A stretch of DNA of 64,000 nt from Spirochaetales bacterium (GTDB lineage: Bacteria > Spirochaetota > Spirochaetia > Sphaerochaetales > Sphaerochaetaceae). Below the pieces are notes generated by a model. It did no database searches and was not told where the DNA came from. It was given only the letters and a program-made list of their open reading frames with translations. The stretch is taken from NCBI GenBank assembly GCA_017470995.1, contig JAFUXI010000056.1, positions 1 to 64,000 of the forward strand, written 5' to 3'. Position 1 is the first letter of the stretch. Each line of letters starts with the position of its first letter. This document shows positions 3,772 through 36,632 of the stretch, one piece after another. Made by a program: the position numbers and the translations under genes.

Positions 3772-3772
3772 A

Positions 3773-4792: not shown

Positions 4793-4801
4793 TTTCTGTT
4801 C

Positions 4802-5923
4802 CTAAACTATCTTCTTAACGTAGGATCTGCGTCTCTTGTGCTTGACCTCGGTAAAGCGCTTCCACTGGTTCTGGATCGCAGCGTTGGTCTCCAGATTAAG
4901 GTTTGTCTCTGCATACTTGATGGATGGATCCTTGAGCATCTTCAGCAGTTCTGCCGAGACGATGGCGCTGATGCCTCTGTTAGCCCATTCGGGATCTACC
5001 CCGACCAGGCCCAAATCTATGATATCAGGATGCTTTACGGCCTTGAGAACCCTGATTATACATCCGGGTGTCAGGTGGCCTCTGCTCTTCTGGACTGCCC
5101 TTCCGATGGAGGGGAAGCAGAGACCCAGGCAGATAGGCTTGTCGTTCTTGTCCAGAATCACCGTGACATGCTTGAGGTCCACGATGAGCTTGAAGCTTGA
5201 AATCAGGGATTTCTTCATGGACTCGGTAAAAGGAACCGTACCGTAAACATCCACATATGCCTTGTCCAGAAGTTCAAAGAAATCGTCCTGATATCTCTTG
5301 AGCCATCTGCTGATGTTCTTTTCGGTTCCGAAATGAAGCTCATAGCGCTTCATCAGGAACTGGGACATCTTTTCAAGTGTTCCATCATCCTCTGCGGGAG
5401 GAGTAAGCATGCTTTCTGTCCAGTCAACTTCCTTTTCATAGCCGAGATTCGAAATCAGTTTCTGGTAGTAATCGGCATTGTACTGCTCTTCGAAGGTTGA
5501 AAGCTGGTCAAAACCCTCAACCAGCAGACCTTCGCGCTCCAGGTCCGAGAAACCCAGAGGGCCGACTATGGTATCCATGCCCTTGCTCAGAGCCCATTTC
5601 TCCACGGCACCGAAGAGTGCGTCGGCAACGTTCTGGTCATCGATGCTGTCGAATCTGGTGAAGCGTACGCGTTTCTCGTTGTGCTTCTCGTTGCTGGCCT
5701 TCTGCAGTATGCCCTGGATCCTTCCGACAATTCTGCCGTCCTGATAGGCATTGTAGCAGACATAATCACAGGTTTCCCTGTAATGGTAGCCGGCCTTGAA
5801 CATTGCCTTCTCGTCCCCGTATAGAGGAGGAACGAAGCAGGGGTTGTCCCTGTACAGCTGCAGAGGGAAGTTGATGAACTGCCTAATTTGTTTTCTTGTC
5901 TTGACTTCTTCGATTGTAATCAT
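4802..5923 (-). CDS. GNAT-fold acyltransferase-like protein of unknown substrate
   Basis: This 373-residue protein starts MITIEEVKTRKQIRQFINFP and continues LYRDNPCFVPPLYGDE, a signature of a widespread uncharacterised N-acetyltransferase-like family. The N-terminal half (~1-150) and the C-terminal third look like two GNAT-type domains. The second has DPEWANRGISAIVSAELL, a variant of the acetyl-CoA-binding loop. Cytoplasmic; substrate unknown. It lies ten bases from degV and nine from plsX, inside the fatty-acid activation genes, so a link with acyl metabolism is likely but not shown by the sequence. Confidence 0.7.
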   Translation of the reverse strand: MITIEEVKTRKQIRQFINFPLQLYRDNPCFVPPLYGDEKAMFKAGYHYRETCDYVCYNAYQDGRIVGRIQGILQKASNEKHNEKRVRFTRFDSIDDQNVADALFGAVEKWALSKGMDTIVGPLGFSDLEREGLLVEGFDQLSTFEEQYNADYYQKLISNLGYEKEVDWTESMLTPPAEDDGTLEKMSQFLMKRYELHFGTEKNISRWLKRYQDDFFELLDKAYVDVYGTVPFTESMKKSLISSFKLIVDLKHVTVILDKNDKPICLGLCFPSIGRAVQKSRGHLTPGCIIRVLKAVKHPDIIDLGLVGVDPEWANRGISAIVSAELLKMLKDPSIKYAETNLNLETNAAIQNQWKRFTEVKHKRRRSYVKKIV

Positions 5924-5933
5924 GGCTTACTAA

Positions 5934-6809
5934 TTATCTGTGGATGGATCTGAAGCAGATTCCGACTCCATCCGGTCCGCTGTGTGCTCCGGCTGTGGGG
6001 TTTGCAGGAACAACCTGGATGTCCAGATCGTTTCCGAGTTTCTCCTTGAGCGCGGCAATGACCTGCTCGACAATCTCAGGGGCGTCTGTATGCCCGATGA
6101 GAATCTTGTGATCCTTGGCGTTGTCACCGAGCTCGATGACCTTGCCTACGACTGCCTCGACAGCTCTTCTTCTGCCGCGTGCCGTGCCGTAGCTTTCCAT
6201 CTTGCCTTCCTGGCTCATATAGATAAGAGGCCTGATTCCGATCAGGCTGCCCATGGTGGCTGTAAGGCCGCTTACTCTGCCGCTGTGTTTGAAGAACTTG
6301 AGATCATCGGCAAAGAAATACATTGCATAATGGTCGACTTCCGTTTCGGCCCACTTGACGATTTCCTCGGCGCTCTTTCCTTCCTGGTACATCTTTCCGA
6401 TATCCATTGCGATGGCGAGGCAGATGGTCGTGATTCCCTTCGTATCAACCTGATAGAGCTTTCTCTCCGGGTACTTCTTCCTGAGTTCCTGAACAGCCTC
6501 CGCCATGTTGTTGAAAGTCATTGTCATTGCTGCGGAGAAGTGGACATACAGAATATCGTTGCCCTGTGCGAACTCCTTTTCGAAGTAATCATAGTACTGC
6601 TGGGTGCTGATGGCGCTTGTGTTGGGAAGAACACCGTCCCTGAGCTGCTGGTAGAAACCATGGACGTCGAACTCATCGAAATCGACGTACGGATATGTTG
6701 TCTTTCCGTCGATGCTGTAAGGCATGCTTATGATTGTCTTGTAGCCATATTCCTTGGCAAGCTGCGGAGTCATGTCGCAGTCTGAATCCGTAAAAAGTAC
6801 GTAGCTCAT
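5934..6809 (-). CDS. DegV-family fatty-acid-binding protein (FakB type)
   Basis: This 291-residue DegV-family protein begins MSYVLFTDSDCDMTPQLAKEY. It has NTSAISTQQYYDYF, where the family binds the fatty acid carboxylate, then HFSAAMTMTFNNM, KHSGRVSG and the GHTDAPE histidine motif near the C-terminus. FakB proteins present a bound fatty acid to the FakA kinase, which makes acyl-phosphate. Here the gene is three bases downstream of the fakA-like gene, which strongly supports this assignment. Which chain types it binds cannot be told from sequence. Confidence 0.85.
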   Translation of the reverse strand: MSYVLFTDSDCDMTPQLAKEYGYKTIISMPYSIDGKTTYPYVDFDEFDVHGFYQQLRDGVLPNTSAISTQQYYDYFEKEFAQGNDILYVHFSAAMTMTFNNMAEAVQELRKKYPERKLYQVDTKGITTICLAIAMDIGKMYQEGKSAEEIVKWAETEVDHYAMYFFADDLKFFKHSGRVSGLTATMGSLIGIRPLIYMSQEGKMESYGTARGRRRAVEAVVGKVIELGDNAKDHKILIGHTDAPEIVEQVIAALKEKLGNDLDIQVVPANPTAGAHSGPDGVGICFRSIHR

Positions 6810-6812
6810 TTT

Positions 6813-8504
6813 CTACTCCTCCAAAATGATCACATAATCGTGAATGGGTTGCCCGCCATCGATCGGGATGATCTCGGTGAGCTTGTATTTCTCTTCAAGT
6901 TCCATGGCCAAGGCATCTGCCTCCTGCTGTGGAACATCCTTTCCTTTGATCAGCATCAATATGCTGTAATCGCCTGAATTGAGGTGAGACAATAGCTTTT
7001 CGCAGGATTCCGCACGGTTTGGGCTATCGGTAAAGATAGTTTCTCCCACAAAGCCGATGAAGTCGCCGCTTCTGATTGCAACACCGTCCTGTTCGGTATC
7101 CCTGTTTGCCTTGCTGACTGCTGCGGTTACGACGCCCTGCATGCTTTCATCTATTGAAGCCAGAAGTTCCTCTGTCGTTTCCTTGGATGTGTCCAGCACA
7201 GAGATGGCTGCATAACCTGTTCCGAGGTCCTTGTTGGGGATAACGATTATGTTTGCCTTGTCATATACTTCCGCAATCTGTCTGGCTGTCAGTATCACAT
7301 TGCCGTTGTTCGGAAACACTATGATGTTCTCGGCTTCGATCGTGTCGAATGCATCCCGGAAGTCCCTGACTGAAGGGTTCATGCTCTGGCCGCCGTTGAT
7401 TACGGCATCCACGCCGATTTCCCTGAAGAGATTACAGACGCCTTCTCCTGCTGCAACCGTGACAGTGGCATATTTCTTCTTCGGCTTATCCGTTCTAAGT
7501 ACAAGATCATCTTCAGACCTGTTATCGGGAGAGCTGTAGTTGTTCTGTACGATGCTCTGGTTGTGCTGGATGGTCATGTTCTCGATCTTGAGGGTCAGGA
7601 ACTCTCCCCATCTCTGGCAGTGGTTCAGAATCTCGCCTGGTGTCTTGGTGTGGACATGGACGCGGATGATGCTGCCGTCACGGAAGGCAACCACCGATTC
7701 TCCGACCTGATTGAGATAATCGAAAACCGGCTGCTCATCGAACGACGAGACATCTCCGACCTTTGCCGTCATGAGCTGGAGAATGAATTCGGTGCAATAG
7801 CCGTAGGTCAGATCACTGTTCTCGTTGAACTTTGAAAGATCCGGCTTCCTTGGGCCATTATCCTTGGCCTGTCCGGTGGAGACTGTTTCATATTCTTCAC
7901 CGAGTAGGGCTTTCTCCATTCCGTGGAATATGTAGACAAGGCCGGCTCCTCCGCTGTCGACAACTCCTGCCTGACCGAGAACCTCAAGCTGGGTCGGGGT
8001 CTTCTCGAGAGCATCGCGCATGGCTGAATTAAGGTCCTTGAAGAGAGACTCGAATTCTTTGTCGCTTCCTTTTTCAACGGCTTCCACTGCGCACCTGAAA
8101 ACGGTGAGGATCGTTCCTTCCACCGGGTGGGCGACTGCCTTGTAGGATTCTTCCACTCCGCTTCTGAGAGCCTTCAGGAAGGCTGCCGGATCGGCGGTTT
8201 CCAGAGCAGAGAGGCCGAGGGCAATGCCCTTGAAGATTCTTGAAAGAATGACCCCGGAGTTGCCTCTTGCACCCATGAACATGCCTTGAGCTGCTTTGTT
8301 AGCTGCATCCGAAAGGCTGTCTTTTCCGGTATCGAGGATTTCTGCTCCGCCGTTTACGGTCATGAACATGTTGTCGCCGGTGTCTCCGTCAGGAATCGGA
8401 AAAACATTGAGATCGTTGACGATCTGTCTGTTTCTGTCCAGTTCCCGAGCTCCACCTATTATCATTCGGGCATAAAGCTTCCCACCGAGTGTTGTTGTAG
8501 CCAT
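6813..8504 (-). CDS. fakA: Fatty acid kinase FakA (DAK2/YloV family)
   Basis: This 563-residue protein has the full YloV/FakA layout. The N-terminal DAK2 nucleotide-binding domain (~1-200) carries NVFPIPDGDTGDNM, with the aspartates that bind magnesium and ATP, and GARGNSGVILS. The middle and C-terminal parts match the family's central and EDD-like domains (INGGQSMNPSV, VFPNNGNVILTA, IHDYVIILEE). It phosphorylates fatty acids held by FakB proteins. It heads the fakA-degV-GNAT-plsX-acpP run. No Shine-Dalgarno is visible before the ATG at 8504. Confidence 0.92.
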   Translation of the reverse strand: MATTTLGGKLYARMIIGGARELDRNRQIVNDLNVFPIPDGDTGDNMFMTVNGGAEILDTGKDSLSDAANKAAQGMFMGARGNSGVILSRIFKGIALGLSALETADPAAFLKALRSGVEESYKAVAHPVEGTILTVFRCAVEAVEKGSDKEFESLFKDLNSAMRDALEKTPTQLEVLGQAGVVDSGGAGLVYIFHGMEKALLGEEYETVSTGQAKDNGPRKPDLSKFNENSDLTYGYCTEFILQLMTAKVGDVSSFDEQPVFDYLNQVGESVVAFRDGSIIRVHVHTKTPGEILNHCQRWGEFLTLKIENMTIQHNQSIVQNNYSSPDNRSEDDLVLRTDKPKKKYATVTVAAGEGVCNLFREIGVDAVINGGQSMNPSVRDFRDAFDTIEAENIIVFPNNGNVILTARQIAEVYDKANIIVIPNKDLGTGYAAISVLDTSKETTEELLASIDESMQGVVTAAVSKANRDTEQDGVAIRSGDFIGFVGETIFTDSPNRAESCEKLLSHLNSGDYSILMLIKGKDVPQQEADALAMELEEKYKLTEIIPIDGGQPIHDYVIILEE

Positions 8505-24486: not shown

Positions 24487-25536
24487 TCAACTGACCGAGA
24501 ACACGAAGCTTATGCTGTTCAGCCTCTTCCAATAGTAGTTGAGAAGAGGAAATCTGCCGTTGTGCCAGATGGCTTCCACCGAAAGAATTCTGTTCTCGAT
24601 CGTACGTTCTATTCCTATCACAACATCGAATTCCGCTTCCCATCCCGATGTATCATCAGCCCTTGTCAGTGTGTGATTCGTTATTCCATCCTGATGCAGG
24701 CGTCCCTGAAAGCTTAGGAAAACATCGCTGTGTCCGAATTGATAACTGAAGGTCAACTCACCGTTGAAAATCAGGGCTTTGTAAGACAGCCCGTAATCAC
24801 CTCTGATTGCATATGACCCGGGGTCTCTTTCCTGATTTGTCTTGCCTCCTGAAACTATGTAGTCAGGACGGTGGACAAAGGGCAGCATATAGCTGTTCTT
24901 CTGGGGAAAGATTACTGAAATTGCACCTTTGACATAGGGGAAAGCCTCATTTGAATAACCCAAGGCTATCTCGAAGTTGTCCCTCACGTATTCCGAGATG
25001 TCGGCATTGACCATCGTCGGATCCTCTCTGACAAGAGAAGCGAGCGTTTCATCTCCAACATGGCCGGAAAAGTGCCGGGAACCGAATCTGAATATAATGG
25101 AATCCAGAATCTTCGCTTCCCCTCCGAGGAAGTAGGATCCGTCGAATCCCAGGACGTCATTCCCATTGAGGAGAAAGAAAACCCCTCGGATATAAGCCTC
25201 AATGCGTCCTCCGATTTCAAGTTTGTTCCATGAGAATCTCGGGGTCGAGGCCCCACCGCCTGCCTGCATGAGAAGGTAATAGTTGTCCTTTTCTTTGTTG
25301 AAGGTCTTGAATTCGCTGTAATACTCACCGGGAATCCCGTCCTTTCTGTCGAATCTGATGAGGTCTCCTTCCGGATCTGTTGATAATGCGCTTATGACTC
25401 CGAGTCTTGTCTTCGGGCTGAACAGGTCGGATTTGAATGATCCGAAGAATCCTGCTTCAGGTCCCATGGAAAACGAGAAAGCTGCAAGAGAAAAGCAGAT
25501 TGCCGCAAACACCAGTATAGCCAGTGTTCTTTTCAT
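24487..25536 (-). CDS. Outer-membrane protein of lipid-export-like operon, copy 2
   Basis: This 349-residue protein has a signal peptide (MKRTLAILVFAAICFSLAAFSFS) and a barrel-like mature part of alternating aromatic strands. It contains FDGSYFLGGEAKILDSIIFRFGSRHFSGHVGDE, matching a block in the upstream gene; H.SGH.GDE resembles the signature of DUF1207 proteins. It ends in FVFSVS. It is the last gene of the operon, 12 bases after its paralogue, and converges on apeB. Function unknown; I infer an outer-membrane receptor or terminal step for the exported lipid. Confidence 0.65.
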   Translation of the reverse strand: MKRTLAILVFAAICFSLAAFSFSMGPEAGFFGSFKSDLFSPKTRLGVISALSTDPEGDLIRFDRKDGIPGEYYSEFKTFNKEKDNYYLLMQAGGGASTPRFSWNKLEIGGRIEAYIRGVFFLLNGNDVLGFDGSYFLGGEAKILDSIIFRFGSRHFSGHVGDETLASLVREDPTMVNADISEYVRDNFEIALGYSNEAFPYVKGAISVIFPQKNSYMLPFVHRPDYIVSGGKTNQERDPGSYAIRGDYGLSYKALIFNGELTFSYQFGHSDVFLSFQGRLHQDGITNHTLTRADDTSGWEAEFDVVIGIERTIENRILSVEAIWHNGRFPLLNYYWKRLNSISFVFSVS

Positions 25537-25548
25537 TGTTTCACTCTC

Positions 25549-26685
25549 CTATAGGGTGAGTCCTAGTCCCACGGAAAAGTACTCGATATCATTGAACCAA
25601 TAGTTCAGCAGGGGAAACCTTCCCTTGTGGTATGTGAACTCGATGTTGAATTCCGGCAGTGTAACCTTGTCCCGGAAAGCGAATCCCAAAACCGCTGAGA
25701 ATTCTTTTTTCCATCCGAGGTCTTCCGAATAGGTTGCGGTAACCGGATCGATCTTGCCGTCCTGATGGAGCTGGATATCTATGCCTGCATAGACCCTCCC
25801 GACATTGTCTATACTGTATTGTGCTTCCAGCGAGAATCCGAATCTCCAGGCTTTGTAGGACGACGGGTAGAATCTGTTGTCCCTGTCTTCAAAGCCCTCC
25901 TGTGTCCAGATGTGATCGGACGTGTTGGCTTTTTCCGGAGATTCCTCGCTTGAGGGTTTTGTAGTATTTGCAGGAACGTGGGCTGCGGGTCTGATCCATG
26001 CCTTGCCTTCCGGGAGTTCCACATCGATTCCGAATCTGATGATGTCGGACAGAGTGTAGCTTGCCCCGAAGTACCAGGAGTTGTTCCTTGTGTATTCGGT
26101 TATCGCCTTGTAGTCTGTGCCTTCTGTGTATCCGCGGGAGAAGAAATCTCCGAGTATCTCATCTCCCCAATGGCCGGAGTAATGATGAAAGCCTCCGCGG
26201 ATGGCGATGCTGTCGAAGAGGAGGGAGGAAAGGCCTAGTCCGTACTGCCCGTCGAAGCCCAGACAATCTACTCCGCCGTAGGCACCGAAGACAGAGTTTA
26301 TTCCTCCGTGAATGTAAATCTCTATCGCTGCAGTTTCTTTCCACGTGAACCTGAGCAATCCGATGTCCGTACAGCTCTTGAGCGCCCAGTATTTTGTATT
26401 GTGGGTGTTGAGTTCCTTGAATTCAAGTTCCTTGTATGTCGGATTGCCTGTCCCGTCATCTGCTGATACCAGAATAGTATTGGTTACGTTATCGGCTTTT
26501 GCCGGGGCAATGAGATAGCTGAACCGTATGTCATTGGAAAATGGATAAGCAAGGCTTTCCTTATAGAGCGGCTTTACAGGTGCGAAATCCAAAGATAAAT
26601 CCCCGAATCCGAATTCTATTGTTGCGGATGCATTTGCCATGATGAGCAGCAATGCAACAGAAATAAAGATATGTTTTCCCTTCAT
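25549..26685 (-). CDS. Outer-membrane protein of lipid-export-like operon, copy 1
   Basis: This 378-residue secreted protein (signal peptide MKGKHIFISVALLLIMANASA) has a beta-rich mature part. The block CLGFDGQYGLG...FDS...GGFHHYSGHWGDE is shared with the following gene, and both end with a HNGRFPLLNYYW- or HKGRFPLLNYWF-type motif ~15 residues from the C-terminus. The H.SGH.GDE motif suggests kinship with DUF1207. The strong pairwise conservation shows a duplication. It lies 38 bases after the DUF3261-like lipoprotein gene. Role unknown. Confidence 0.65.
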   Translation of the reverse strand: MKGKHIFISVALLLIMANASATIEFGFGDLSLDFAPVKPLYKESLAYPFSNDIRFSYLIAPAKADNVTNTILVSADDGTGNPTYKELEFKELNTHNTKYWALKSCTDIGLLRFTWKETAAIEIYIHGGINSVFGAYGGVDCLGFDGQYGLGLSSLLFDSIAIRGGFHHYSGHWGDEILGDFFSRGYTEGTDYKAITEYTRNNSWYFGASYTLSDIIRFGIDVELPEGKAWIRPAAHVPANTTKPSSEESPEKANTSDHIWTQEGFEDRDNRFYPSSYKAWRFGFSLEAQYSIDNVGRVYAGIDIQLHQDGKIDPVTATYSEDLGWKKEFSAVLGFAFRDKVTLPEFNIEFTYHKGRFPLLNYWFNDIEYFSVGLGLTL

Positions 26686-26723
26686 GCCGTCACTATAAAC
26701 ATACGCTATGGGTGTTTCAAGCT

Positions 26724-27287
26724 TTATTGAAGGAATTCTATCTGATAGCTGTAATCACGAAGGCGGTTTACTACATGTATGCCGCCTTCTTCATATTCAA
26801 TGTTGTAGATTATCTCATCGTCTTCGAGAATGACTCTGCGTACAAGTTTCCCTTCCGAGAAGGATTCCACCAGAACCAGGTCGCTGTTGGAGAACTCGGC
26901 ACCGATTGAACCGGTGGATGCAAAGCAGAGCTGCATGTCTGCAACGATGAACATGCCTATGATCCTGTACTCCGGAAGGAAGGTGGACTCGAAGCTGATC
27001 TTTTCCCCGTCATAGACTACCTTGCACATCGTCTGGCCGGTAGGAGCGAACATCACGAGATTCAGCGCAGTCTCATCAGAGGTGAACCATGCTTCCATCG
27101 CAACGTTCTCATAGCCCGGAAACGATCCGGTGATCAGCTGGTACGAATCAACCGGTTCATCTATAGCCGACAGGGGGAGAAGATGGAAGTAGGAGTTCTC
27201 TCCCATGCGGAAGCTCAGTGTAGTACATGAGGTCAGGCAGAGGAATGCTGCAAGCACTGAAACGACAAGTAGTGTTTTCCTTTTCAT
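26724..27287 (-). CDS. DUF3261-like lipoprotein
   Basis: From the ATG at 27287 this encodes 187 residues with a lipobox (FLCLTSC), so it is lipid-anchored, probably to the outer membrane. The mature part, with LLPLSAIDEPVDSYQLITGSF, LVMFAPTGQTMCKVVYDGEKISFES and ADMQLCFAS, follows the pattern of DUF3261 proteins that accompany aryl-polyene clusters and resemble LolB-like folds. The start overlaps the exporter stop by four bases (ATGA). A role as acceptor for cargo from the LolA-like protein is plausible. Family membership is by eye. Confidence 0.65.
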   Translation of the reverse strand: MKRKTLLVVSVLAAFLCLTSCTTLSFRMGENSYFHLLPLSAIDEPVDSYQLITGSFPGYENVAMEAWFTSDETALNLVMFAPTGQTMCKVVYDGEKISFESTFLPEYRIIGMFIVADMQLCFASTGSIGAEFSNSDLVLVESFSEGKLVRRVILEDDEIIYNIEYEEGGIHVVNRLRDYSYQIEFLQ

Positions 27288-29581
27288 TTGTCTGCTCCTA
27301 TGGCGCACAAAAAAGCAACCAGTATTCCGATGAATACCGTGAGTCCGAAGATGTGTACGGGTGTGAAACTGCTGAACAGCAGAGAGCCGAAGCTCAGTTC
27401 GGTTGTTATGAATGACAGGAATATCGCCTTCTTGGATCCGTTGTTTTTCCCGGATCTGGCAAAGACCATGTAGTCCAAACCAAGGCCTACAATCAGCACA
27501 AGACCGACTGCAACGAAGAAGTCGAGCCTGTAGCCGAAGAGGGTAAGGATCCCTATCGTTCCAATCAGGACAGTGTAGGGCGCGAGGCTCATGGCAAGGC
27601 CCTTCTTCCAGCCGAACAGAACCACAAGGACAATGATTATGGCCACAATAGCCACGATGAACATCCTGAAGATGAGGGATGAAAGATTGTCCAGCTCCCG
27701 GCTTACATCCTTGCTTGTCTGGAAGTATTCGACCCCGTCAAAGGAATCCGAAATGGTTTTTATCTCATCTCCGTCCTTGGCATTCTGGATGACTACAACT
27801 TCATAGAAGCGGCCTTCGATCTCGCCCAGGGAAATCGAACCAAGCATCGAACGAATGCTTGAAGGTAGGGATGATGTTGAGAATAATGAAGCATTATCTG
27901 AAATCCGAGCTACTATAGCTGCTTTATCTTCATCTGAAACTCCCAGGATTTCACATTGCTCATCAAGAAGCGGAATAAGGCAGGAAGCAGCTTTCAGACT
28001 TGCTCTTTGGACCGAAGCAGGAGGCACGAACGACGATGTTGCGATATAGCCTGAGATGGAACCTGTCTGCTTGAGTTTCTCCAATTCACCGGTAAAGAGG
28101 AACTCCTTCTCAAGAACGTCGTTTTCATCGGAGCCTTCCACTATCGCATAGGTGGTCGAAAGGAATCCTGTGGCTTTGCCTGCGGTCGCCTCGCCCTTGA
28201 GCATCCTCTCCGACGGGGTGTAGAGGCTTGTGATATCGTTCTTCACGGTAAGGCGCGGAATCTGTACGGCAAGGAGGACTGTTGCCGCAATTGCCAGAAT
28301 GGGAAGCAGAAGCGGTACAGAAACCTTCTTCTCCGGTCTGGCCGCAAAGGATTTCGGATTGATCATCCTTTCGGAGAGGAGTTTCGGGTAGAGCAGCATG
28401 GCCACCAGATAGGAACTGAGAAGGCCCGTAAGGGAGATTACGGCCATCTGTTTCAATATCCCGTAGGAAGAGAAGAGCAGCACCAGATAGCACAGTTCCG
28501 TCGATATGAAACTGACGCTCAGGCTCTTTCCGATTTTCTTCTTCAGATCGAAGGTTTCGTCCGGGGACTTCTGGGCAAGCGTCATGTAGCTGTGTATGGA
28601 GTAGTCTATGCAGGTTCCGATCAGCGTTGTCCCGAATATCATGGAAAGCACATGGATTTCCCTGAAGAACAGAAGCAGAGCTGCAACTGCGCTTCCTGTG
28701 GCGATTGCCAGGCTCATGGCAAACAGCCAGAGAATATGGAAGTTCCTGCACAGGAGGAAGAACATCAGTAGTATCAGAAGAACTGAGGCTACCGAGATGA
28801 CGGTAATCTCATTCTGGGCTCCGCTTGCACTTTCGTAGCTGTGGAATGCGAGGCCGCTGCAGCTTATCTGAGCATTCTCTTCCGTATATCTGTCACAGAT
28901 TTCGAAAATGCTTTCTATGCCGCTGTTCTTGCCCGCAAGGCTGAGGCTTTCTGCAGTCAGGCGTCCGCTGATGATCACGTACCATATGTCGTCTACCTGT
29001 GCACAGAGAACTCCGTCCTTCGGTGAGAACGGTGTGAGGTTTCCTACCTTGTCCAGGAGGTTGAACCAGACTGTTTCGCTCAGCAGGAACGGGTCCTTGT
29101 CCAGATTGGAGAGGGAAGAGATCGTGAAGGCGCTGAAGATCCTTGCAAGGCTGTCATCCTGGAAGGACCGCGGGTCCGCCTTGATTCTGCTTCGTGTCTC
29201 TGCGTCAAGGAGTCTGTAGACATTGTCGGATACCATCGAGAACAGTTCCTCCGTGTCCAAGACAGAGCTCTCGATTGAAATGGATTCGAATGCTCCGCAG
29301 TTTTCCAGAAGAGGGAATATCTGCATCGCCTTGTTTCTGACTGCTTCGAAATCCTCTCCGCTTACGAAGATGTTGACGTTTGCGTTCTGGCCCTCGGTGA
29401 ATGCGCTTTCCGCCTTGAGCATCGAGTCCGATACACCGCCCTGGGGAATCATGCTGGTAAAGCTTGTGCTTATCTTCCTGGGACTGACAATGCAGGCAAC
29501 TGCAGCTGCTGCAAAAAGAATCAGCAGGGCAGTCAGAAAGATTGCTGTAGGTTTAAAGCGAGTACAGTGCAAGCTCTTCAT
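27284..29581 (-). CDS. MMPL/RND-family exporter
   Basis: This 765-residue protein has the RND half-duplicated plan: one N-terminal helix, a large periplasmic domain (~35-250), a bundle of about five helices (~255-410), a second helix and periplasmic domain, and a final bundle. TLIGTCIDYSIHSYM and GLGLDYMVFARSG carry the aspartates of the proton relay. MMPL proteins export lipids or polyenes to the outer leaflet or periplasm. It corresponds to the predicted exporter (COG4258) of aryl-polyene clusters. The ATG at 29581 lies inside the LolA-like gene (29-base overlap). Confidence 0.88.
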   Translation of the reverse strand: MKSLHCTRFKPTAIFLTALLILFAAAAVACIVSPRKISTSFTSMIPQGGVSDSMLKAESAFTEGQNANVNIFVSGEDFEAVRNKAMQIFPLLENCGAFESISIESSVLDTEELFSMVSDNVYRLLDAETRSRIKADPRSFQDDSLARIFSAFTISSLSNLDKDPFLLSETVWFNLLDKVGNLTPFSPKDGVLCAQVDDIWYVIISGRLTAESLSLAGKNSGIESIFEICDRYTEENAQISCSGLAFHSYESASGAQNEITVISVASVLLILLMFFLLCRNFHILWLFAMSLAIATGSAVAALLLFFREIHVLSMIFGTTLIGTCIDYSIHSYMTLAQKSPDETFDLKKKIGKSLSVSFISTELCYLVLLFSSYGILKQMAVISLTGLLSSYLVAMLLYPKLLSERMINPKSFAARPEKKVSVPLLLPILAIAATVLLAVQIPRLTVKNDITSLYTPSERMLKGEATAGKATGFLSTTYAIVEGSDENDVLEKEFLFTGELEKLKQTGSISGYIATSSFVPPASVQRASLKAASCLIPLLDEQCEILGVSDEDKAAIVARISDNASLFSTSSLPSSIRSMLGSISLGEIEGRFYEVVVIQNAKDGDEIKTISDSFDGVEYFQTSKDVSRELDNLSSLIFRMFIVAIVAIIIVLVVLFGWKKGLAMSLAPYTVLIGTIGILTLFGYRLDFFVAVGLVLIVGLGLDYMVFARSGKNNGSKKAIFLSFITTELSFGSLLFSSFTPVHIFGLTVFIGILVAFLCAIGADK

Positions 29582-30185
29582 CTGTCAGCTTCCTGATCTG
29601 AAGGTCAGAGAACTCATAGAGGATGGAATCGCCGGTGGTTTCCGTCATCTTCAGGGATTCGAAAGAACAGGAACCGGTCATGAGTATACTGGTCATGAAT
29701 GACCCTACGACCTTGTCCTTGGGAATAAGGGTAAGGGTCCATTTGGTATCTTCTTTGACGAGATATGTCTTGAAAAGTGAAGCTATCTTCGAGAAATCGG
29801 CACTGAAAACACATTCCATTGAGGTAGCTATCTGAATGTATATCGGATTGTTCGCAATATCGAGATGGGACGGCTCTCCGTCTCGGATCTTCTGCACAAG
29901 CTTGTCTTTGCCGACAACCAGAATGGAGGCATAGGGCTTCTCCGTGCACCACACGATTCCCATTCCGGATGCGATGGTGATCCTGCCTGTCGAGACAAAG
30001 CTCCTGGGACTGCCGGCGACAGTCTTTGTCTGCCTGAAAAGCCCAGCCATGGTGGAACCTCCGAAGGCATCGGAGATGAAGGAGTAATTGCCTGACATCA
30101 GATCGACTTCGGTTCCGGGATTATCCGCAGCAAAGAGCGGAAAGAGCAGAAAAAGCATGGCAATGACGATGATTACTTTGCGCAT
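29553..30185 (-). CDS. LolA-like periplasmic carrier
   Basis: From the ATG at 30185 (preceded by AAGGAAA) this encodes 210 residues with a signal peptide (MRKVIIVIAMLFLLFPLFAAD). The mature part shows the LolA pattern: MAGLFRQTKTVAGSPRSFVSTGRITIASGMGIVWCTEKPYASILVV, in blocks of strand and helix. LolA-type proteins ferry lipid moieties across the periplasm. In aryl-polyene clusters a divergent LolA sits beside the MMPL exporter, exactly as here. It is thus more likely a dedicated carrier than the housekeeping LolA. Confidence 0.8.
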   Translation of the reverse strand: MRKVIIVIAMLFLLFPLFAADNPGTEVDLMSGNYSFISDAFGGSTMAGLFRQTKTVAGSPRSFVSTGRITIASGMGIVWCTEKPYASILVVGKDKLVQKIRDGEPSHLDIANNPIYIQIATSMECVFSADFSKIASLFKTYLVKEDTKWTLTLIPKDKVVGSFMTSILMTGSCSFESLKMTETTGDSILYEFSDLQIRKLTDEELALYSL

Positions 30186-31108
30186 AGTTTCCTTATAAGG
30201 TCGATTATCTTCCGTTTGGGCGGACAAGGCAACATGTGGAAATCATTTTCTCCGTGCTCTTCGCTTTCCCAAAGGCGCAGGACTTCCTGCTGAAAAGGCC
30301 TGTCCGTTTCCATTCCGGTCTGTCTGCCGGCCTTCAGATCGGATACAAGCGATACTGTGAAGTGCCAGAGATCCTGTTTCCGGGAAACGCCGGTCTCGGC
30401 GGTATCGGCCTGTCTGAAAAGATCTTCCCAGGTCCGGTTCTCTGGTGATCTGTAGGTATATGTCTCTCCGTAGTAGCCGACTATATAGTCAGAGGGCCTT
30501 GCATCGGATCGGACATCCCTTACAAGGATGATCCTGTCTGCCTTTTTGTTTGAAAGTGAGACTATCGGGAACTGGATTGCAATTAGAATGCCCTGCACGA
30601 TGTATGAGATGAGGGCATTGTAGATGGTCCATATCCGGAGCGTGCTGCCGAAAACGATGAACAGATTGATTGCCAGGCTGATGATGAAGTGGATGCACCA
30701 CATTATGTTCAGTGCCTTGCAGCAACGTTCCAGCATGCCTCTCCCGGGGTGCGTTTCGATTGCGCTGTCCATCATCATGGCAAAGGTGGTGATTATGGGC
30801 TTGCCTCTCAGAAGCGGGACACCGAAGGCAAATAGGAAAACCAGTGTAAGACAGACCGGATAGAACTTCAGCACCGTCTCGCTCTGGGTGATCAGAACAA
30901 CTATTGCCACAAGTCCCAGGAGAATTGCGCTCCAGTTCCGTTTGCCCTTGGTGTGGAAGAATCCGAAGTAGGCGATGGCTATGATCATCATCCCGATGGA
31001 GACGATGCTTATGGGCAGCTTGAACACCACAAGGGTCAGGAAAATGAAAAGAGGATAGGTGACAATCAATGTCACCAGAAAGATTTTCGCGATGCTTCTG
31101 CCTTTCAT
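30173..31108 (-). CDS. COG4648-like membrane protein with extra C-terminal domain
   Basis: This 311-residue protein has about six hydrophobic helices in residues 1-190. Segments VLKFYPVCLTLVFLFAFG and WCIHFIISLAINLFIVFG then WTIYNALISYIVQGIL match the pattern of COG4648 membrane proteins, which recur in aryl-polyene clusters. Residues ~190-311 are a soluble tail (SDYIVGYYGETYTYRSPENR, WHFTVSLVSDLKAGRQ) I do not recognise and which that family usually lacks. It overlaps the LolA-like start by 13 bases. Its role is unknown; I infer a membrane partner of the exporter or the ligase. Confidence 0.65.
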   Translation of the reverse strand: MKGRSIAKIFLVTLIVTYPLFIFLTLVVFKLPISIVSIGMMIIAIAYFGFFHTKGKRNWSAILLGLVAIVVLITQSETVLKFYPVCLTLVFLFAFGVPLLRGKPIITTFAMMMDSAIETHPGRGMLERCCKALNIMWCIHFIISLAINLFIVFGSTLRIWTIYNALISYIVQGILIAIQFPIVSLSNKKADRIILVRDVRSDARPSDYIVGYYGETYTYRSPENRTWEDLFRQADTAETGVSRKQDLWHFTVSLVSDLKAGRQTGMETDRPFQQEVLRLWESEEHGENDFHMLPCPPKRKIIDLIRKLCAK

Positions 31109-31114
31109 CGGTCT

Positions 31115-31684
31115 TCAGAACTGGAAACAGTAGCCTGTTCTCATTGAAGTCAGCAGCACACCCAGTGTAGCCATGGATGTCAGCGGACCGATGAACGGGC
31201 CGTGTTCTTGGACTTCTCCGTATGAATAGTAGCTTACGTAGCCGCCGACCGGGATGTCGATTCCGACAAATACTCCGTGGGATCTGCGGTATCCGAACCA
31301 GTGGGTGTACTGGATGCCGAATGTCAGGCCGGCGAACTTCAGGTATGTCGGTTCGGTTTTTGTTTCTTCTTCATAAACATAGCTGTCGTTCCCGTTGATG
31401 TTGAGATAGCTCAGGCCGAATCTGAGGTCCAGATCATTGCCTACGTTCTGAATCAGGTCAACAGACAGCAGCCCCTGTGCATAGATCCAGCCGAAGTCGT
31501 CCTCAGTCTGGTTTGCAAGTCTTGCAACCGAGATTGTGCCTCCGATCTTGACGCTGTCGGTAAGGGAAACCGTTGCTCCGGCATTGGCTCCCAGAATGGA
31601 GAATCCGAGCTGGAACGACATTGTTCCGGCAAAGGCCGCTGCTGCGCAGAGCAGGATGCAGATTATTGTAATCGCTTTTTTCAT
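31115..31684 (-). CDS. Small outer-membrane beta-barrel protein
   Basis: This 189-residue protein has a signal peptide (MKKAITIICILLCAAAAFAG) and roughly eight amphipathic strands with tight turns, ending in aromatic GYCFQF as barrel proteins do. It lies between the acyl carrier protein (one-base overlap) and the COG4648-like gene, so it belongs to the lipid-export-like operon. No family is recognised. An eight-stranded barrel could act as a lipid-modifying or lipid-binding outer-membrane component, but that is a guess. Confidence 0.65.
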   Translation of the reverse strand: MKKAITIICILLCAAAAFAGTMSFQLGFSILGANAGATVSLTDSVKIGGTISVARLANQTEDDFGWIYAQGLLSVDLIQNVGNDLDLRFGLSYLNINGNDSYVYEEETKTEPTYLKFAGLTFGIQYTHWFGYRRSHGVFVGIDIPVGGYVSYYSYGEVQEHGPFIGPLTSMATLGVLLTSMRTGYCFQF

Positions 31685-31941
31685 TATGACTCCTTGATCC
31701 TGCTTCCGATGTAGTCGACTACATCCCGTACAGTTACGAAATCATTGAAACCCACATCGCCGAACTGGATCGAGAATGTTTCCTCGATCATTATCACCAT
31801 GCAGATCATGCCGATTGAGTTCAATCCGACCTGTGTGCGCAGATCGGAAGCTTCGTCGATGTTATCCATTACATCCGCCTTGTCAGGGAGGGCGGTTCTG
31901 AAGATATCCTTCAGTTTTTCCAAAATATCCTTTCTGTTCAT
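31684..31941 (-). CDS. Dedicated acyl carrier protein
   Basis: From the ATG at 31941 this encodes 85 residues: MNRKDILEKLKDIFRTALP, the phosphopantetheine site VGLNSIGM and VIMIEETFSIQFGD, the standard second ACP helix. It differs clearly from the housekeeping acpP product at 3529-3771. It overlaps the ligase gene by four bases (ATGA), so the ligase probably loads it. It should hold an acyl chain as a thioester for the acyltransferases of the operon. Confidence 0.88.
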   Translation of the reverse strand: MNRKDILEKLKDIFRTALPDKADVMDNIDEASDLRTQVGLNSIGMICMVIMIEETFSIQFGDVGFNDFVTVRDVVDYIGSRIKES

Positions 31942-33458
31942 TCCGGCTGATTCCTCAATACCTTCATGCTCGGGCTTCTTGCAAAGTCCTTGTCCCTGAT
32001 TACGATCCTGTTGATGCGGCAATGGGAGGGGAGCGTGGAGTTAACTTCATTGATCTCGGCTTTCAGATACTCCTCCATGTTCTGGACGCCCTTTGCCTTG
32101 AGGTTCGCCATTCTCGGAAGAACCTCAAGAGTGAGGATATCCATGCCGTTCTCAGTCCTGTGGGTTACAAGGCAGTCCTGGATGTCGTCTATCATGTCGA
32201 AGGTATTCTCGATTTCCTGCGGAGATACGTTTTCTCCTGTTGCAAGCACTATCAGCTCCTTCAGACGCCCGGTGATGTAGAGCCTCTGGTCTTCATCGAA
32301 TCTGACCAGATCTCCCGTGCGGAACCATCCGTCTACAAAGGAAGCTTCCGTCTCCTTCGGATCGTTGAGATAGCAGTCCATCACATTGGGTCCCTTTATC
32401 CAGAGTTCCCCGTCCACTACCTTGGCCTGCATTCCGGGGTAGATGTATCCGACGGATTCGGGATGCTGGTCCGATTCCGGGTTCCCGCTGACAAGGTTTG
32501 CGCTCTCAGTCAGACCGTAGCCGGGAAGGAGCTTGATGCCGAACTTATCGTATTCCCTGACAAGATAGGGCGGAACCATCGCAGCGCCGCAGATGATGGT
32601 CTTCACATCATTGCCGAACATGTTCCGTCCGAGCTGTCTGGAAAGATTTAGTGCCATTTCTACAAGAGCAGGTACCAGAACAAGGATGCTGGGTCTGAAG
32701 ATTGCGATGTCCTTGAACATGTCCTTCGGATTCCGGCAGATGCGGATTGCGCTTCCGGTGTAGATGCTTGTCATCAGGTTCCTGATAAGACCGAAGATGT
32801 GGGTAAGCGGGAGAACCAGAACATAGCGCTGGAAGAAAACGTCAGGGTAGCCGTAGCAGCCGTTCTTTGCTCCGGTGGTGATTGCCCTGTGAGAAAGCAG
32901 AACCCCCTTGCTCTGTCCGGTCGTGCCGCTTGTAAAGAGCATTGCGCACGGATCGGAAGGCTCCACCTCGGTCATTTTGCACGGCTGTGCGCTCTGGCCT
33001 GGGTTGATGATAGCAAGAGCAGGTTTTGTGCTCTTTGCAAGTTCTGTCTTGGGTGCAAGCTCTTCCGAAGTAATGATGGCCTTCAGGTTGTACTTCATCG
33101 TACAGCCCATGATGGCCTGCGGAGGAAGCTGGGCGGGAAAGAGAACCGCCACTGCACCTGCTGTTACGGTTGCGAAGAATGCCTTGACCGCATCATAGCA
33201 GTTCGGCAGAAGAATGCCGACAAGGTCACCCTTTGCTACCCCTGCATCTTTGAGGGCGCCGCGAAGGACTGCCGTATCCGCACCGAGCTGAGAGAAGGTT
33301 GTCTCAGTCTCGTCCGATACAGCTGTTCTGTCGGAGTATGCGTCTGTGCTATGCTGAAGAAGCTGTTGCACAGTATTGTAGTCTACAATCTGATCGAAGG
33401 TCTGTTTGTCGCAATAGGATCTGAAATTCTCAACATTGCCTTCATATACGGTCATCAT
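31938..33458 (-). CDS. AMP-dependent acyl ligase (acyl-ACP/CoA synthetase type)
   Basis: This 506-residue adenylate-forming enzyme shows all core motifs: LFTSGTTGQSKGVLLSH (~170), YGLTES (~310), GWFRTGDLVRF (~360), GRLKELIVLATGENVSP (~385) and the C-terminal catalytic lysine in RSPSMKVLR. It activates a carboxylic acid with ATP and transfers it to a thiol, here most likely the ACP encoded by the next gene. Two ATGs stand in tandem (33458 and 33455); AAGGAG suits either. In aryl-polyene clusters the equivalent ligase starts the chain; here no chain-extending enzymes are present. Confidence 0.92.
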   Translation of the reverse strand: MMTVYEGNVENFRSYCDKQTFDQIVDYNTVQQLLQHSTDAYSDRTAVSDETETTFSQLGADTAVLRGALKDAGVAKGDLVGILLPNCYDAVKAFFATVTAGAVAVLFPAQLPPQAIMGCTMKYNLKAIITSEELAPKTELAKSTKPALAIINPGQSAQPCKMTEVEPSDPCAMLFTSGTTGQSKGVLLSHRAITTGAKNGCYGYPDVFFQRYVLVLPLTHIFGLIRNLMTSIYTGSAIRICRNPKDMFKDIAIFRPSILVLVPALVEMALNLSRQLGRNMFGNDVKTIICGAAMVPPYLVREYDKFGIKLLPGYGLTESANLVSGNPESDQHPESVGYIYPGMQAKVVDGELWIKGPNVMDCYLNDPKETEASFVDGWFRTGDLVRFDEDQRLYITGRLKELIVLATGENVSPQEIENTFDMIDDIQDCLVTHRTENGMDILTLEVLPRMANLKAKGVQNMEEYLKAEINEVNSTLPSHCRINRIVIRDKDFARSPSMKVLRNQPE

Positions 33459-34107
33459 ATAACTCCTTGTAGTATTTCTCGAGTTCTATTTCCTTTTCAC
33501 GCAGGTTCGCGGAGATTTCCTCAAGTTCATTTACCGACGGGAACTTTCCGCGATATTCAAGATCCAGAGGTTCTCCGACGATGAGAATCTTTCTTTTCTT
33601 TCCCTCGGGTTTTCTTATGTAGATCGGAAGAATCGGGCATCTGTTCATGATTGCCATTATCGAGATTCCGCTCTTGAAGTCTGCAAGCTGGTCTGCATTC
33701 TCGTTGATGTGTCCTTCCGGGAATACCGCCACCGGTTTTTCACGCTTCAGGACTTCTCCTGCCTGCCTGATTACGGACATGTTGAGGTTCTGCCGGTCAA
33801 CCTTGATGCAGTGCATGTTGCGGAAGAAGAAGTTCCCTAGTTTTGTCTCAAAGAGTTCGCTTGCAGCCAGAAAGTGAACCTGCCTGTACCAGAATGCACA
33901 GAGGATTGCGGCAACATCCAGAAAGGAAGTGTGGTTGGACATGATCAGAAGCTTTCCTTTGGGGATGCGCTTCATACTCTTGTTTATGAAAACCACGCGC
34001 GGAGCAAGGAAGGGGGCGGGAAAGATTCCCGTCACCTTTACGAAGTAGTAGAGGAAATAGTTTCTGACAGGCCTCTTCTCAGGCTTCGAAGCTTTCTCCA
34101 AGTTCAA
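33442..34107 (-). CDS. PlsC-type acyltransferase, copy 2
   Basis: This 221-residue protein has one N-terminal hydrophobic segment and the PlsC motifs: catalytic NHTSFLD (H-x4-D, ~58-64), FPEGH (~129) and PILPIYI. It transfers an acyl chain from a carrier to a lysophospholipid-like acceptor at the inner membrane. It overlaps the ligase start by 17 bases and the preceding acyltransferase by 29. The partner operon genes suggest the carrier is the dedicated ACP. Confidence 0.88.
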   Translation of the reverse strand: MNLEKASKPEKRPVRNYFLYYFVKVTGIFPAPFLAPRVVFINKSMKRIPKGKLLIMSNHTSFLDVAAILCAFWYRQVHFLAASELFETKLGNFFFRNMHCIKVDRQNLNMSVIRQAGEVLKREKPVAVFPEGHINENADQLADFKSGISIMAIMNRCPILPIYIRKPEGKKRKILIVGEPLDLEYRGKFPSVNELEEISANLREKEIELEKYYKELYDDRI

Positions 34108-34714
34108 TTACCTTCCTTCTCACGATCTCTGCAATATCCAAAAGGTTTTCCTTATGGCTCTTGCTTTCATCATAAAGTTCTTTCACATATATCGGTTTTC
34201 CGATTGCAGCCCTGACACGGCCCTTCTTGAAATACTCTCCGCTTGAATAGAGCGGGATAATCGGCGCATCGCATTCAAGTGCCATGTGGACGAAACTGGG
34301 CTTGAAGGGCAGGGGTTTTTCCTCGTCTGCTTCCGCTATGCGTGATTCGGGAAAAACCTGGACAACCCCACCTTTGTCCAGAATATGCTGGCACTGTTTT
34401 ATGAATCCCAGATCCTGCGCCTTTCGGCTTACGAATATTCCCTGGTTCATCTTCAGAAACAGTGTCAGGAAAAAGTTGATGTGTTTCAGCACATCCGCCA
34501 TGATGCATCTGTGTGCACGGAAGGGCAGGGCATAGAGCCAGAACCCGAAGTCCCAGACCGTCGTGTGGTTCGAGACTATTATCGCCTTGCCCTTGATAAG
34601 CCGTCCCTGTGCTTTTCTGTCCTCATACCTGAATCTGGGATTGACCCAGAAACGGTAGACGGGATAACCCGTGATGCGGATAAAGAGCTGGAACAACCAT
34701 GCACCGATGCTCAT
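34079..34714 (-). CDS. PlsC-type acyltransferase, copy 1
   Basis: This 211-residue member of the lysophospholipid acyltransferase family has NHTTVWD (H-x4-D) and FPESR in place of the usual FPEG, plus PIIPLYSSGE. The changed second motif points to a different acceptor from that of the neighbouring copy. The N-terminal hydrophobic stretch should bind the inner membrane. It starts six bases after the transporter gene. Two such enzymes side by side suggest two successive acylations. Confidence 0.85.
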   Translation of the reverse strand: MSIGAWLFQLFIRITGYPVYRFWVNPRFRYEDRKAQGRLIKGKAIIVSNHTTVWDFGFWLYALPFRAHRCIMADVLKHINFFLTLFLKMNQGIFVSRKAQDLGFIKQCQHILDKGGVVQVFPESRIAEADEEKPLPFKPSFVHMALECDAPIIPLYSSGEYFKKGRVRAAIGKPIYVKELYDESKSHKENLLDIAEIVRRKVIELGESFEA

Positions 34715-34720
34715 GGACTA

Positions 34721-36577
34721 TCAGGCCTCAAGGAGCTTGTTCACATTCTTCTGGAGAATGCAAAGCGCAATAAGGTTTACCGGCAGAATCGGAAGAATTA
34801 TGCAGGAAATTGTCAGAACGGCCTTGTTTCCCGTCATCTTCACGCCCTTTTTGTCTGCCTCGGCCTTCAGGGCATCAAAGGCCTTGATGGCTGAGATTAT
34901 TCCGCCGAACGGAATCAGACATCCCAGAAGCCATGCCAGCTTAGCCTTGAAGGACTTGGCCTGCTCCCTTACGGACTTGAATAGATATGCAGTCCAGATG
35001 AAGCCGAAGATGAAGCCCGAGAGGATCGACAGTCCGACCATGACCGGGAGGAACTCTCCCTTGCCGTTCTCGTCCACATCGACGGGAATGTTGGAGATGT
35101 CCAGGCTGGGATCCATCTTCTTGAGTTCCTTGGCCACCAGCTCAGGTGAGAAATCCTTGGGCATCCTGAAGGCCAGGATGACGCCGAGGATACACACGAT
35201 GCAGACGATGAACGGAACCATAAGCGTTCCGAGGTTGAATACGTTGGAAGTGTCCAGACCGAACTTGGATGCGGCCTCTGCAGCATTGGTTGCATAGACG
35301 ACTCCGGATGCACCCTTGCTGATGAAGAGCATCTTGATGTTCTCATAGACCAGGGAACCCGAAATTGCACCGACTATCGATGTGGTGACGGCATTGGCGG
35401 CGAAGTACATGGCGCTGTGGTTGCGTCCGGTGAGCTTCTCCTCAACGCTTGAAATCTGCGAGGGAACGAGGTAGGGCATCATGAAGAACGATCCGATTGC
35501 CCAGCTTCCCGAAACTCCTCCGATGCATCCGATGAGCATCTGAAGTCCCTTATTGTTGGGGCCGATGACATAAAGCGATCCGAAGAAGAACGAAAGGATT
35601 GCCACTGCAAAAGCCAGAAGACAGGTCTGGTATGTAAAACGCACACCCTTTTTCGCCTTGAGCTTGTTGAAAAGGTAAAGCATGATCGGAACCGGAGCAA
35701 AGGCACAGGTGTTGAGGATTGCCATCTGCAGTCCGTTCATGCCCATTCCTCCGACTATCATGGCGTTCATGCCGACCAGGAACATCTGAAGGCCGAAATA
35801 TGTGCAGCAGTTGACGAATGTCCAGCTCATGAAGAGCTTGTTGGAGAATGTCAGCTTCAGGCTCTGCCAGATGGTGATCTTCTCCTCCTTCATGCCTTCG
35901 TTCTCAGGATAACCGTACTTTTCTCCTTCCTTGATGAGGAAAAGGGGAATGATCATGGTCAGCATCAGAGGAAGTCCCATGAGGGCGAACTTGTCGATGT
36001 GCATCTTCATGGCATCGAGAAGAAGGGGTACCAGGGCATAGACGAGGCAGTAGCTTATGGTGTCAAAGAAGGACTTATAGCCCGATACCCTCAATCTCTG
36101 GGATTCGCTGTTGCAGGTTGTGGAAAGCGATCCGTAGAAGGAAATGAGACACATCGTATAGGTTGCGAAGAACACCAGGGACCAGAAGAAGACCCAAATT
36201 GTGTTCAGAAGCTGTCCCTGAGGACCTCCGACGGGAATCCAGCAGAGTGCATAAGATACGATCATGGGGATAAGACAGATGGCGATGGGCGGTCTTCTTC
36301 TTCCCCATTTGGTCGAGAGAGTATCAGTGATGTGTGCGAACGGGATATCGATGATTCCGTCGAAAACCTTGCCGATTGCATAGAGAATCGGGAAGATGGC
36401 AGGGAGAATGAAGCATGTTCCGCTCATTATCGCCTGGAATGTGTTGCCGCTTCCGAGAGCGGCGGGATTGATGGCGTCGGTGTAGTAGGCACCCATGAGT
36501 ACCATCAGGAAGTTCGGTCCGAAACCGGACAGCGAGAAAAGGAGTTCCTTTCCTCTTGAATCCAAAGACTTCACCAT
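34721..36577 (-). CDS. GPH/MelB-type (MFS_2) transporter, long form
   Basis: This 618-residue protein has ~12 helices and the family signature GKVFDGIIDIPFAHITDTL followed by TKWGRRRPP, the cation-binding aspartates and cytoplasmic loop of MelB-type symporters. It is ~150 residues longer than typical sugar symporters; a polar insertion (~420-490) and a C-terminal membrane region account for this. It heads the operon after AAGGAG and a consensus promoter. Most relatives move glycosides, but the same fold includes lysolipid transporters. Beside two acyltransferases, a lipid-related substrate is an attractive inference. Confidence 0.75.
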   Translation of the reverse strand: MVKSLDSRGKELLFSLSGFGPNFLMVLMGAYYTDAINPAALGSGNTFQAIMSGTCFILPAIFPILYAIGKVFDGIIDIPFAHITDTLSTKWGRRRPPIAICLIPMIVSYALCWIPVGGPQGQLLNTIWVFFWSLVFFATYTMCLISFYGSLSTTCNSESQRLRVSGYKSFFDTISYCLVYALVPLLLDAMKMHIDKFALMGLPLMLTMIIPLFLIKEGEKYGYPENEGMKEEKITIWQSLKLTFSNKLFMSWTFVNCCTYFGLQMFLVGMNAMIVGGMGMNGLQMAILNTCAFAPVPIMLYLFNKLKAKKGVRFTYQTCLLAFAVAILSFFFGSLYVIGPNNKGLQMLIGCIGGVSGSWAIGSFFMMPYLVPSQISSVEEKLTGRNHSAMYFAANAVTTSIVGAISGSLVYENIKMLFISKGASGVVYATNAAEAASKFGLDTSNVFNLGTLMVPFIVCIVCILGVILAFRMPKDFSPELVAKELKKMDPSLDISNIPVDVDENGKGEFLPVMVGLSILSGFIFGFIWTAYLFKSVREQAKSFKAKLAWLLGCLIPFGGIISAIKAFDALKAEADKKGVKMTGNKAVLTISCIILPILPVNLIALCILQKNVNKLLEA

Positions 36578-36603
36578 AAGTCTACTCCTTACATATAGGA
36601 AAA

Positions 36604-36632
36604 ATTATAGTGATACCACTTGTTATGTTCAA
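36604..36632 (-). promoter_or_regulatory. Promoter of the twelve-gene lipid-export-like operon
   Basis: Minus-strand TTGAAC (36627-36632), a 17-base spacer and the perfect TATAAT (36604-36609) lie ~27 bases before the transporter ATG at 36577. A terminator for the upstream gene ends just before it. Confidence 0.85.

Follow-up and report, generated by a model that had tools for sequence, protein, structure and literature searches.

Aryl polyene (APE) clusters are among the closest described relatives of the locus analysed here. In the E. coli cluster apeA-R, ApeGLMN have been proposed as a dedicated transport machinery, with ApeN annotated as LolB-like, and neither the lipid anchor of aryl polyenes nor their route of transport has been settled (PMC8253772). 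A twelve-gene operon in the window, by which we mean the whole 64,000-nt stretch of spirochaete DNA that was analysed, shares ApeD-, ApeE-, ApeG-, ApeH-, ApeL-, ApeM- and ApeN-type genes with that cluster, including the ApeG/L/M/N transport set, but has no ketosynthases, ketoreductase, dehydratases, thioesterase, ApeJ glycosyl/acyltransferase or methyltransferase, carries a ligase of a different type and has two PlsC genes. Full aryl-polyene-type clusters also occur in spirochaetes (L018 in G015, L015 in G047, and L113). Their ApeG, LolA, MMPL and DUF3261 proteins are homologous to those of the window, with 40-42% identity between the window MMPL and those of G015 and G047, but they keep two ketosynthases, a ketoreductase, a dehydratase and an ApeG-fused ligase, none of which the window has, and none of 45 such loci has FakA/FakB nearby. 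The solved structure nearest the window MMPL is the hopanoid exporter HpnN, a protein with a lipid cargo, as proposed for the window MMPL, although the similarity is weak (1.1e-12). We know of no ligase/ACP module for HpnN.

Partial parallels exist on both the activation and the delivery side. In the AasR/AcpR system of Rhodobacteria, a dedicated ligase and ACP steer fatty acids to one special lipid, as proposed here for the window, but that system feeds serine palmitoyltransferase in sphingolipid synthesis and its described gene sets have no MMPL/LolA/DUF3261 module (PMC9386255). LplT-Aas combines a transporter, a PlsC domain, an acyl-ACP ligase and an ACP as the window does, but Aas is one fused protein and, unlike the window operon, the system has no periplasmic or outer-membrane delivery parts (PMC11416262). 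The flexirubin LolA2/LolB2 proteins of Flavobacterium are a LolA and LolB-like pair in a polyene-pigment locus, comparable to the pair in the window, but sit in a complete pigment operon (PMC11885536).

Because the chain-building and aryl-ligase features were looked for and not found, the window cluster is not an aryl polyene cluster. We propose, with a probability of roughly 0.6, that it is an aryl-polyene-type envelope-lipid cluster that lost its chain-building enzymes and aryl-acid ligase and was re-coupled to ready-made fatty acids.

Organization of the operon

The ORF list of the window contains 12 co-directional minus-strand reading frames (36577 to 24487), separated by overlaps or short gaps, of which the widest (38 bp) lies just before the first outer-membrane protein gene (OMP1). 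The operon ends 1 bp from a convergent M18 aminopeptidase gene identified by Pfam. The twelve-gene operon of the preliminary description is thus real, and its chance or chimeric assembly is ruled out by recurrence of the arrangement in other MAGs from separate assemblies. Its further claim of one promoter for all twelve genes needs qualifying. A promoter-like site (TTGAAC-17-TATAAT, 36604..36632, minus strand, 10/12 match) is well placed after a terminator-like hairpin with a T run at 36675-36652, but such sites are not above chance by count (11 observed in the region versus 11.4 in shuffles), so transcription of the twelve genes as a single unit is putative. OMP1 also has its own promoter-like site (26720-26692).

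Acyl activation genes

The first gene (34721..36577; all operon genes lie on the minus strand) encodes a 618-aa MFS_2 (GPH/MelB-type) transporter (PF13347, 2.1e-34). It is followed by two PlsC-family acyltransferases, one of 211 aa with an HTTVWD motif (34079..34714; PF01553, 1.1e-17) and one of 221 aa with HTSFLD and FPEGH motifs and a TTG start (33442..34107; PF01553, 4.9e-24), the second of which also matches AGP acyltransferase and acyl-ACP--phospholipid acyltransferase models. Next come a 506-aa AMP-forming acyl ligase of the fatty-acid-ligase type (31938..33458; PF00501, 1.2e-62) and a dedicated 85-aa ACP with a GLNS motif (31684..31941; PF00550, PP-binding, 1.1e-6), one of two ACPs in the genome. 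Profile searches thus confirmed all five of these earlier assignments. A small secreted barrel-like protein of 189 aa (31115..31684) has no family match; its homologues are found in loci L019 and L020, and it is present in genomes G000 (the window's own), G135 and G129.

The best NCBIfam match of the ligase is a long-chain-fatty-acid--CoA ligase (9.6e-65). Its subfamily is rare, being found in 3 of 393 phylum genomes and 7 of 139 family genomes, and discrete, with the three phylum members at about 1e-278 and nothing further down to 1e-90. Substrates are not reliably predicted from ligase family. The ligase and ACP genes are adjacent and overlapping, as in the ligase-with-cognate-ACP arrangement of Aas and AasR. 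The earlier interpretation of the locus as an aryl-polyene-type cluster that has no chain-building genes and loads a pre-formed acid onto its own ACP is supported, having withstood each test applied. That acid is probably a fatty acid that the cell scavenges.

The position of the MFS gene at the head of the operon, and the matches of the second PlsC protein and the ligase to acyl-ACP--phospholipid acyltransferase models, would also suit lysophospholipid salvage by a split version of the LplT-Aas unit of E. coli (PMC11416262). The MFS protein would then import a lysolipid, the ligase charge the ACP and PlsC re-acylate, and the Ape-type genes would be a neighbouring relic or a separate lipid shuttle. 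We regard such salvage as unlikely. Among ketosynthase-less clusters the transporter gene occurs in G000 and G135 only, with a remnant MFS-PlsC pair in G127, and a sequence search for a solved relative of the protein found none, whereas the combination of ligase, ACP, PlsC, ApeG and MMPL recurs in two lineages. By gene neighbourhood (loci L020 and L053), the transporter is lineage-specific and not core.

A ligase stump in the ApeG-like protein

The ApeG-like (COG4648/VC0807) membrane protein of 311 aa (30173..31108) is a weak match to the library profile of the VC0807 family (NF041646, 3.6e-5), but homology to L112, an ApeG-ApeH fusion of a full aryl-polyene-type cluster, is firm (1.7e-43), and homologues in full clusters uphold the COG4648-like assignment made earlier despite the profile result. 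Its predicted structure has a mean pLDDT of 72.7 and a low-confidence tail.

Full clusters have ApeG and the ligase in one fused protein, and the one such ligase examined (L111) finds its best match in 4-coumarate-CoA ligase (2.7e-25). The window protein carries about 120 extra residues at its C terminus, in which residues about 192-264 (30317..30535) form a vestigial ligase (ApeH) stump: 70 columns are collinear with the start of the fused ligase (hhalign P 5.5e-6, against 0.83 for the reversed control), a signal that is weak by single-sequence search (0.0069, just above shuffles). Three Treponema-type ApeG proteins bear longer ligase stumps (1e-14 to 1e-20). Because an ApeH stump remains on ApeG and a free long-chain-type ligase is encoded in the operon, the aryl-type ligase was lost, with a free fatty-acid-type ligase there instead. 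The ancestor of the window cluster was thus a full aryl-polyene-type cluster, of whose ligase domain a stump is all that survived.

That descent, with the ApeH of such clusters activating 4-hydroxybenzoate (PMC8253772), and the presence of feruloyl- and oxalyl-CoA ligases among the solved structures nearest the operon ligase would fit the loading of an aromatic or other pre-formed non-fatty acid, for example a dietary plant phenolic, to give an aryl-lipid without a polyene chain. We hold this to be improbable, since only a remnant of the old aryl-type domain survives and the ligase now present is of another type, and since the FakB/FakA, patatin and hydrolase genes adjacent to related clusters encode enzymes that handle fatty acids or lipids.

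Absence of chain-building enzymes and apparent lack of fatty-acid synthesis

The window's genome is a 1.92-Mb assembly, 81% complete, and is closely related to spirochaete MAGs from rumen and gut; most of the genomes compared are incomplete MAGs. Profiles built from spirochaete aryl-polyene-type clusters found no ketosynthase, ketoreductase or dehydratase in the window, and a search of the 81% complete genome was also empty for ketosynthase while 14 of 14 control genomes were positive. The absence of chain-building enzymes noted in the preliminary description is thereby extended from the window to the genome for ketosynthase, and a ketosynthase elsewhere is ruled out for this assembly. Across the genus, ketosynthase was found in none of 11 genomes apart from one weak fragment, FabD in none of the 11, and PlsY was missing from 10, with a fragment in G127. 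This spirochaete seems unable to make its own fatty acids.

A separate housekeeping operon for exogenous fatty acids lies at 3529..8504 on the minus strand. It comprises FakA (6813-8504; FakA profile covering the Dak2, middle and C-terminal domains), FakB (5934-6809; DegV profile), a 373-aa reading frame to which no name was assigned (4802-5923), PlsX (3773-4792; PlsX profile) and the genome's other ACP (3529-3771). The domains of the FakAB exogenous fatty-acid system are therefore found in this operon, as they are beside the cluster of G133. Such a Fak-PlsX-ACP operon, in a genome where ketosynthase and FabD were not found, is as expected of a cell living on exogenous fatty acids. PlsX here stands without its usual partner, PlsY. 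A transposase-like ORF, of IS110 type by appearance, adjoins the housekeeping ACP at 2421-3476, and a similar one occupies the same place in G133 (L058).

The absence of FASII hallmarks (ketosynthase and FabD) and of PlsY would also accord with a route that generally replaces bulk phospholipid synthesis where FASII is missing and in which the export genes matter little. The separate FakA-FakB-PlsX-ACP operon, the nine PlsC-family matches in the genome and the complete lack of the ligase in several congeners make this the least probable of the alternatives.

Export genes

The LolA-like periplasmic lipid carrier (29553..30185, likely start 30185, ORF from 30227) is recognized by PF03548 (1.5e-7), by the flexirubin-type NCBIfam model LolA2_flexi (4.5e-17) and by similarity to the solved LolA-family protein 8t5j (4e-13). 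The adjoining MMPL/RND exporter of 765 aa (27284..29581) matches PF03176 (1.7e-4, over the cut-off) and HpnN (2.6e-13), which bears out its assignment; its Asp-Tyr pairs D326-Y327 and D703-Y704, invariant in our alignment, are what we take to be the proton relay. The DUF3261 lipoprotein (26724..27287, likely start 27287, ORF from 27308) matches PF11659 (6.1e-15), and its lipobox Cys28 is invariant in 33 sequences. In Foldseek, its AF2 model (pLDDT 91.9) finds its best matches in LolB proteins (2.8e-5, TM only 0.43-0.54), and DUF3261 is predicted to have a LolB-like fold. The LolA and DUF3261 assignments therefore hold in profile searches, the latter also by predicted fold.

A predicted LolB-like DUF3261 protein together with LolA and MMPL agrees with the transport role proposed for ApeGLMN in E. 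coli (PMC8253772). As to the earlier claim that MMPL and LolA deliver the product to the outer membrane, the transport set is confirmed by family and fold, while the product and the direction of its transport are proposed. Retention of these transport proteins without polyene chemistry suggests that ApeGLMN is a modular lipid exporter independent of that chemistry, and the window operon offers a small system in which to study ApeGLMN lipid export.

The last two genes encode the paralogous outer-membrane proteins OMP1 (25549..26685) and OMP2 (24487..25536), for which profile searches found no family match. They are paralogues as first described (28% identity, 8e-29) but are accessory rather than core, being missing from the sister operon of G135 (L020), whose ligase and MMPL are 95% and 91% identical to those of the window. 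Their candidacy as an outer-membrane port was demoted for that reason. Both share an H-x-SGH-x-GDE region and an FPLLNY end, and relative to G135 they are inserted between DUF3261 and the aminopeptidase.

Ketosynthase-less clusters in two lineages

DUF3261 neighbourhoods across the family and phylum are mostly full aryl-polyene-type clusters, with two ketosynthases, a ketoreductase, a dehydratase, a glycosyltransferase and HtrB-like genes. A scan with the MMPL alignment gave 80 spirochaete loci. Ketosynthase is present in 45 of them, and among the remaining 35 several stand alone or lie at a contig edge. Ten spirochaete genomes hold the operon's ligase in a cluster or block that has no ketosynthase, so the gene-neighbourhood survey called for by the preliminary description shows that the arrangement recurs. 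Seven carriers are Sphaerochaetaceae (G000, G135, G133, G129, G026, G018 and G019) and three are Treponema or Spirochaetaceae (L129, L158 and L178), and both lineages carry the distinctive ligase, the dedicated ACP and PlsC. The ligase contig of G019 holds DUF3261, with ApeG, LolA and MMPL not seen on it, and in G133 the ApeG/LolA/MMPL/DUF3261 genes lie kilobases away from the ligase block. Genome-wide searches found no ketosynthase in any of the seven Sphaerochaetaceae carriers; among the Treponema-type carriers it is absent in one and present elsewhere in the genome in two, so loss of fatty-acid synthesis is not required for the cluster.

Ketosynthase-less sequences fall into two supported groups in the MMPL tree, a Sphaerochaetaceae-type (97) and a Treponema-type (100), with one row, L115, placed by kinship to L116, its own contig having no ligase. 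Both groups sit among ketosynthase-containing relatives, and a single ancestral ketosynthase-less lineage is ruled out by the AU test (p-AU 4.6e-5, lnL difference 304). The ketosynthase-less arrangement thus arose at least twice. Ligases are 49-53% identical across these two MMPL lineages, with 49% between the window and the Treponema-type group. One ligase module was therefore combined, whether by transfer or by being assembled more than once, with two distinct export modules, which is the strongest argument that the activation and export halves work together.

FakB/FakA adjoin the cluster in 8 of the 10 ketosynthase-less genomes, a count that includes G019 and the ligase contig of G129, where only FakB is visible before the contig end, versus 0 of the 45 ketosynthase-containing loci. 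Within a single survey the ratio is 4 of 6 versus 0 of 45 (Fisher p 6e-5), for loci that are phylogenetically non-independent and many of which are cut by contig ends. The window operon and its sister in G135 have no adjacent FakB/FakA, and the only Fak genes of the window are those of the housekeeping operon, which lies about 16 kb past the end of the twelve-gene operon. In this respect the twelve-gene operon is less typical than its relatives.

Proposed pathway

If the operon is indeed an envelope-lipid cluster that now draws on ready-made fatty acids, the stand-alone AMP ligase would activate a free fatty acid taken from the gut and charge the dedicated ACP with it, and the two PlsC-type acyltransferases would transfer the chain to an acceptor, either glycerol-phosphate or a lysolipid. 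Removal of the lipid from the cytoplasmic membrane would fall to the ApeG-like protein together with the MMPL pump, driven by protons. LolA would then ferry it through the periplasm to the outer membrane, where the LolB-like DUF3261 lipoprotein would receive it. We infer the fatty-acid substrate, the acceptor (anchor) lipid, every enzymatic step and the direction of transport.

We put at about even odds that these clusters are a class without earlier description, in which a polyene-export machinery cut at least twice from polyketide synthesis was joined to a fatty-acyl ligase/ACP/PlsC/fatty-acid-kinase set and exports lipids made from scavenged fat. Literature searches found nothing combining aryl polyenes with fatty acid kinase, and survey-type papers only for aryl polyenes and spirochaetes. 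If the proposal is true, spirochaetes scavenge fatty acids of the host or its diet, build lipids from them and export these to the outer membrane, which would bear on how bacteria without fatty-acid synthesis furnish that membrane from scavenged lipids.

Variation among related loci

Sister clusters additionally encode a patatin-like phospholipase (1e-26), alpha/beta hydrolases that are either secreted or membrane proteins, an LRAT-PPTase protein and a didomain protein of the AMP-binding/ACP kind; the patatin and hydrolases, as lipid-releasing enzymes, and FakB/FakA all handle fatty acids or lipids. The patatin-like protein of L204 (5850-8120) has 756 aa and a likely signal peptide, and its gene lies directly upstream of DUF3261-PlsC-PlsC-ligase-ACP-FakB. 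LRAT and phosphopantetheinyl-transferase-like domains are joined in one protein in the ketosynthase-less cluster L178 (7336-8349). AMP-binding and ACP domains likewise share one protein heading PlsC-PlsC genes in L051 (2568-3824) and L024 (1272-2681), and the ligase part of the L051 protein looks degenerate.

In Treponema bryantii, a stand-alone LolA-MMPL pair lies beside a PlsC-like gene (L127:9349-12340) within 22 kb that hold no other ape genes, and L126 has a similar bare pair. The full aryl-polyene-type cluster of a Spirochaetales MAG (L018:1689-9051) is accompanied by carboxyltransferase-like, FabD-like and PPTase-like genes, as if it made its own malonyl supply.
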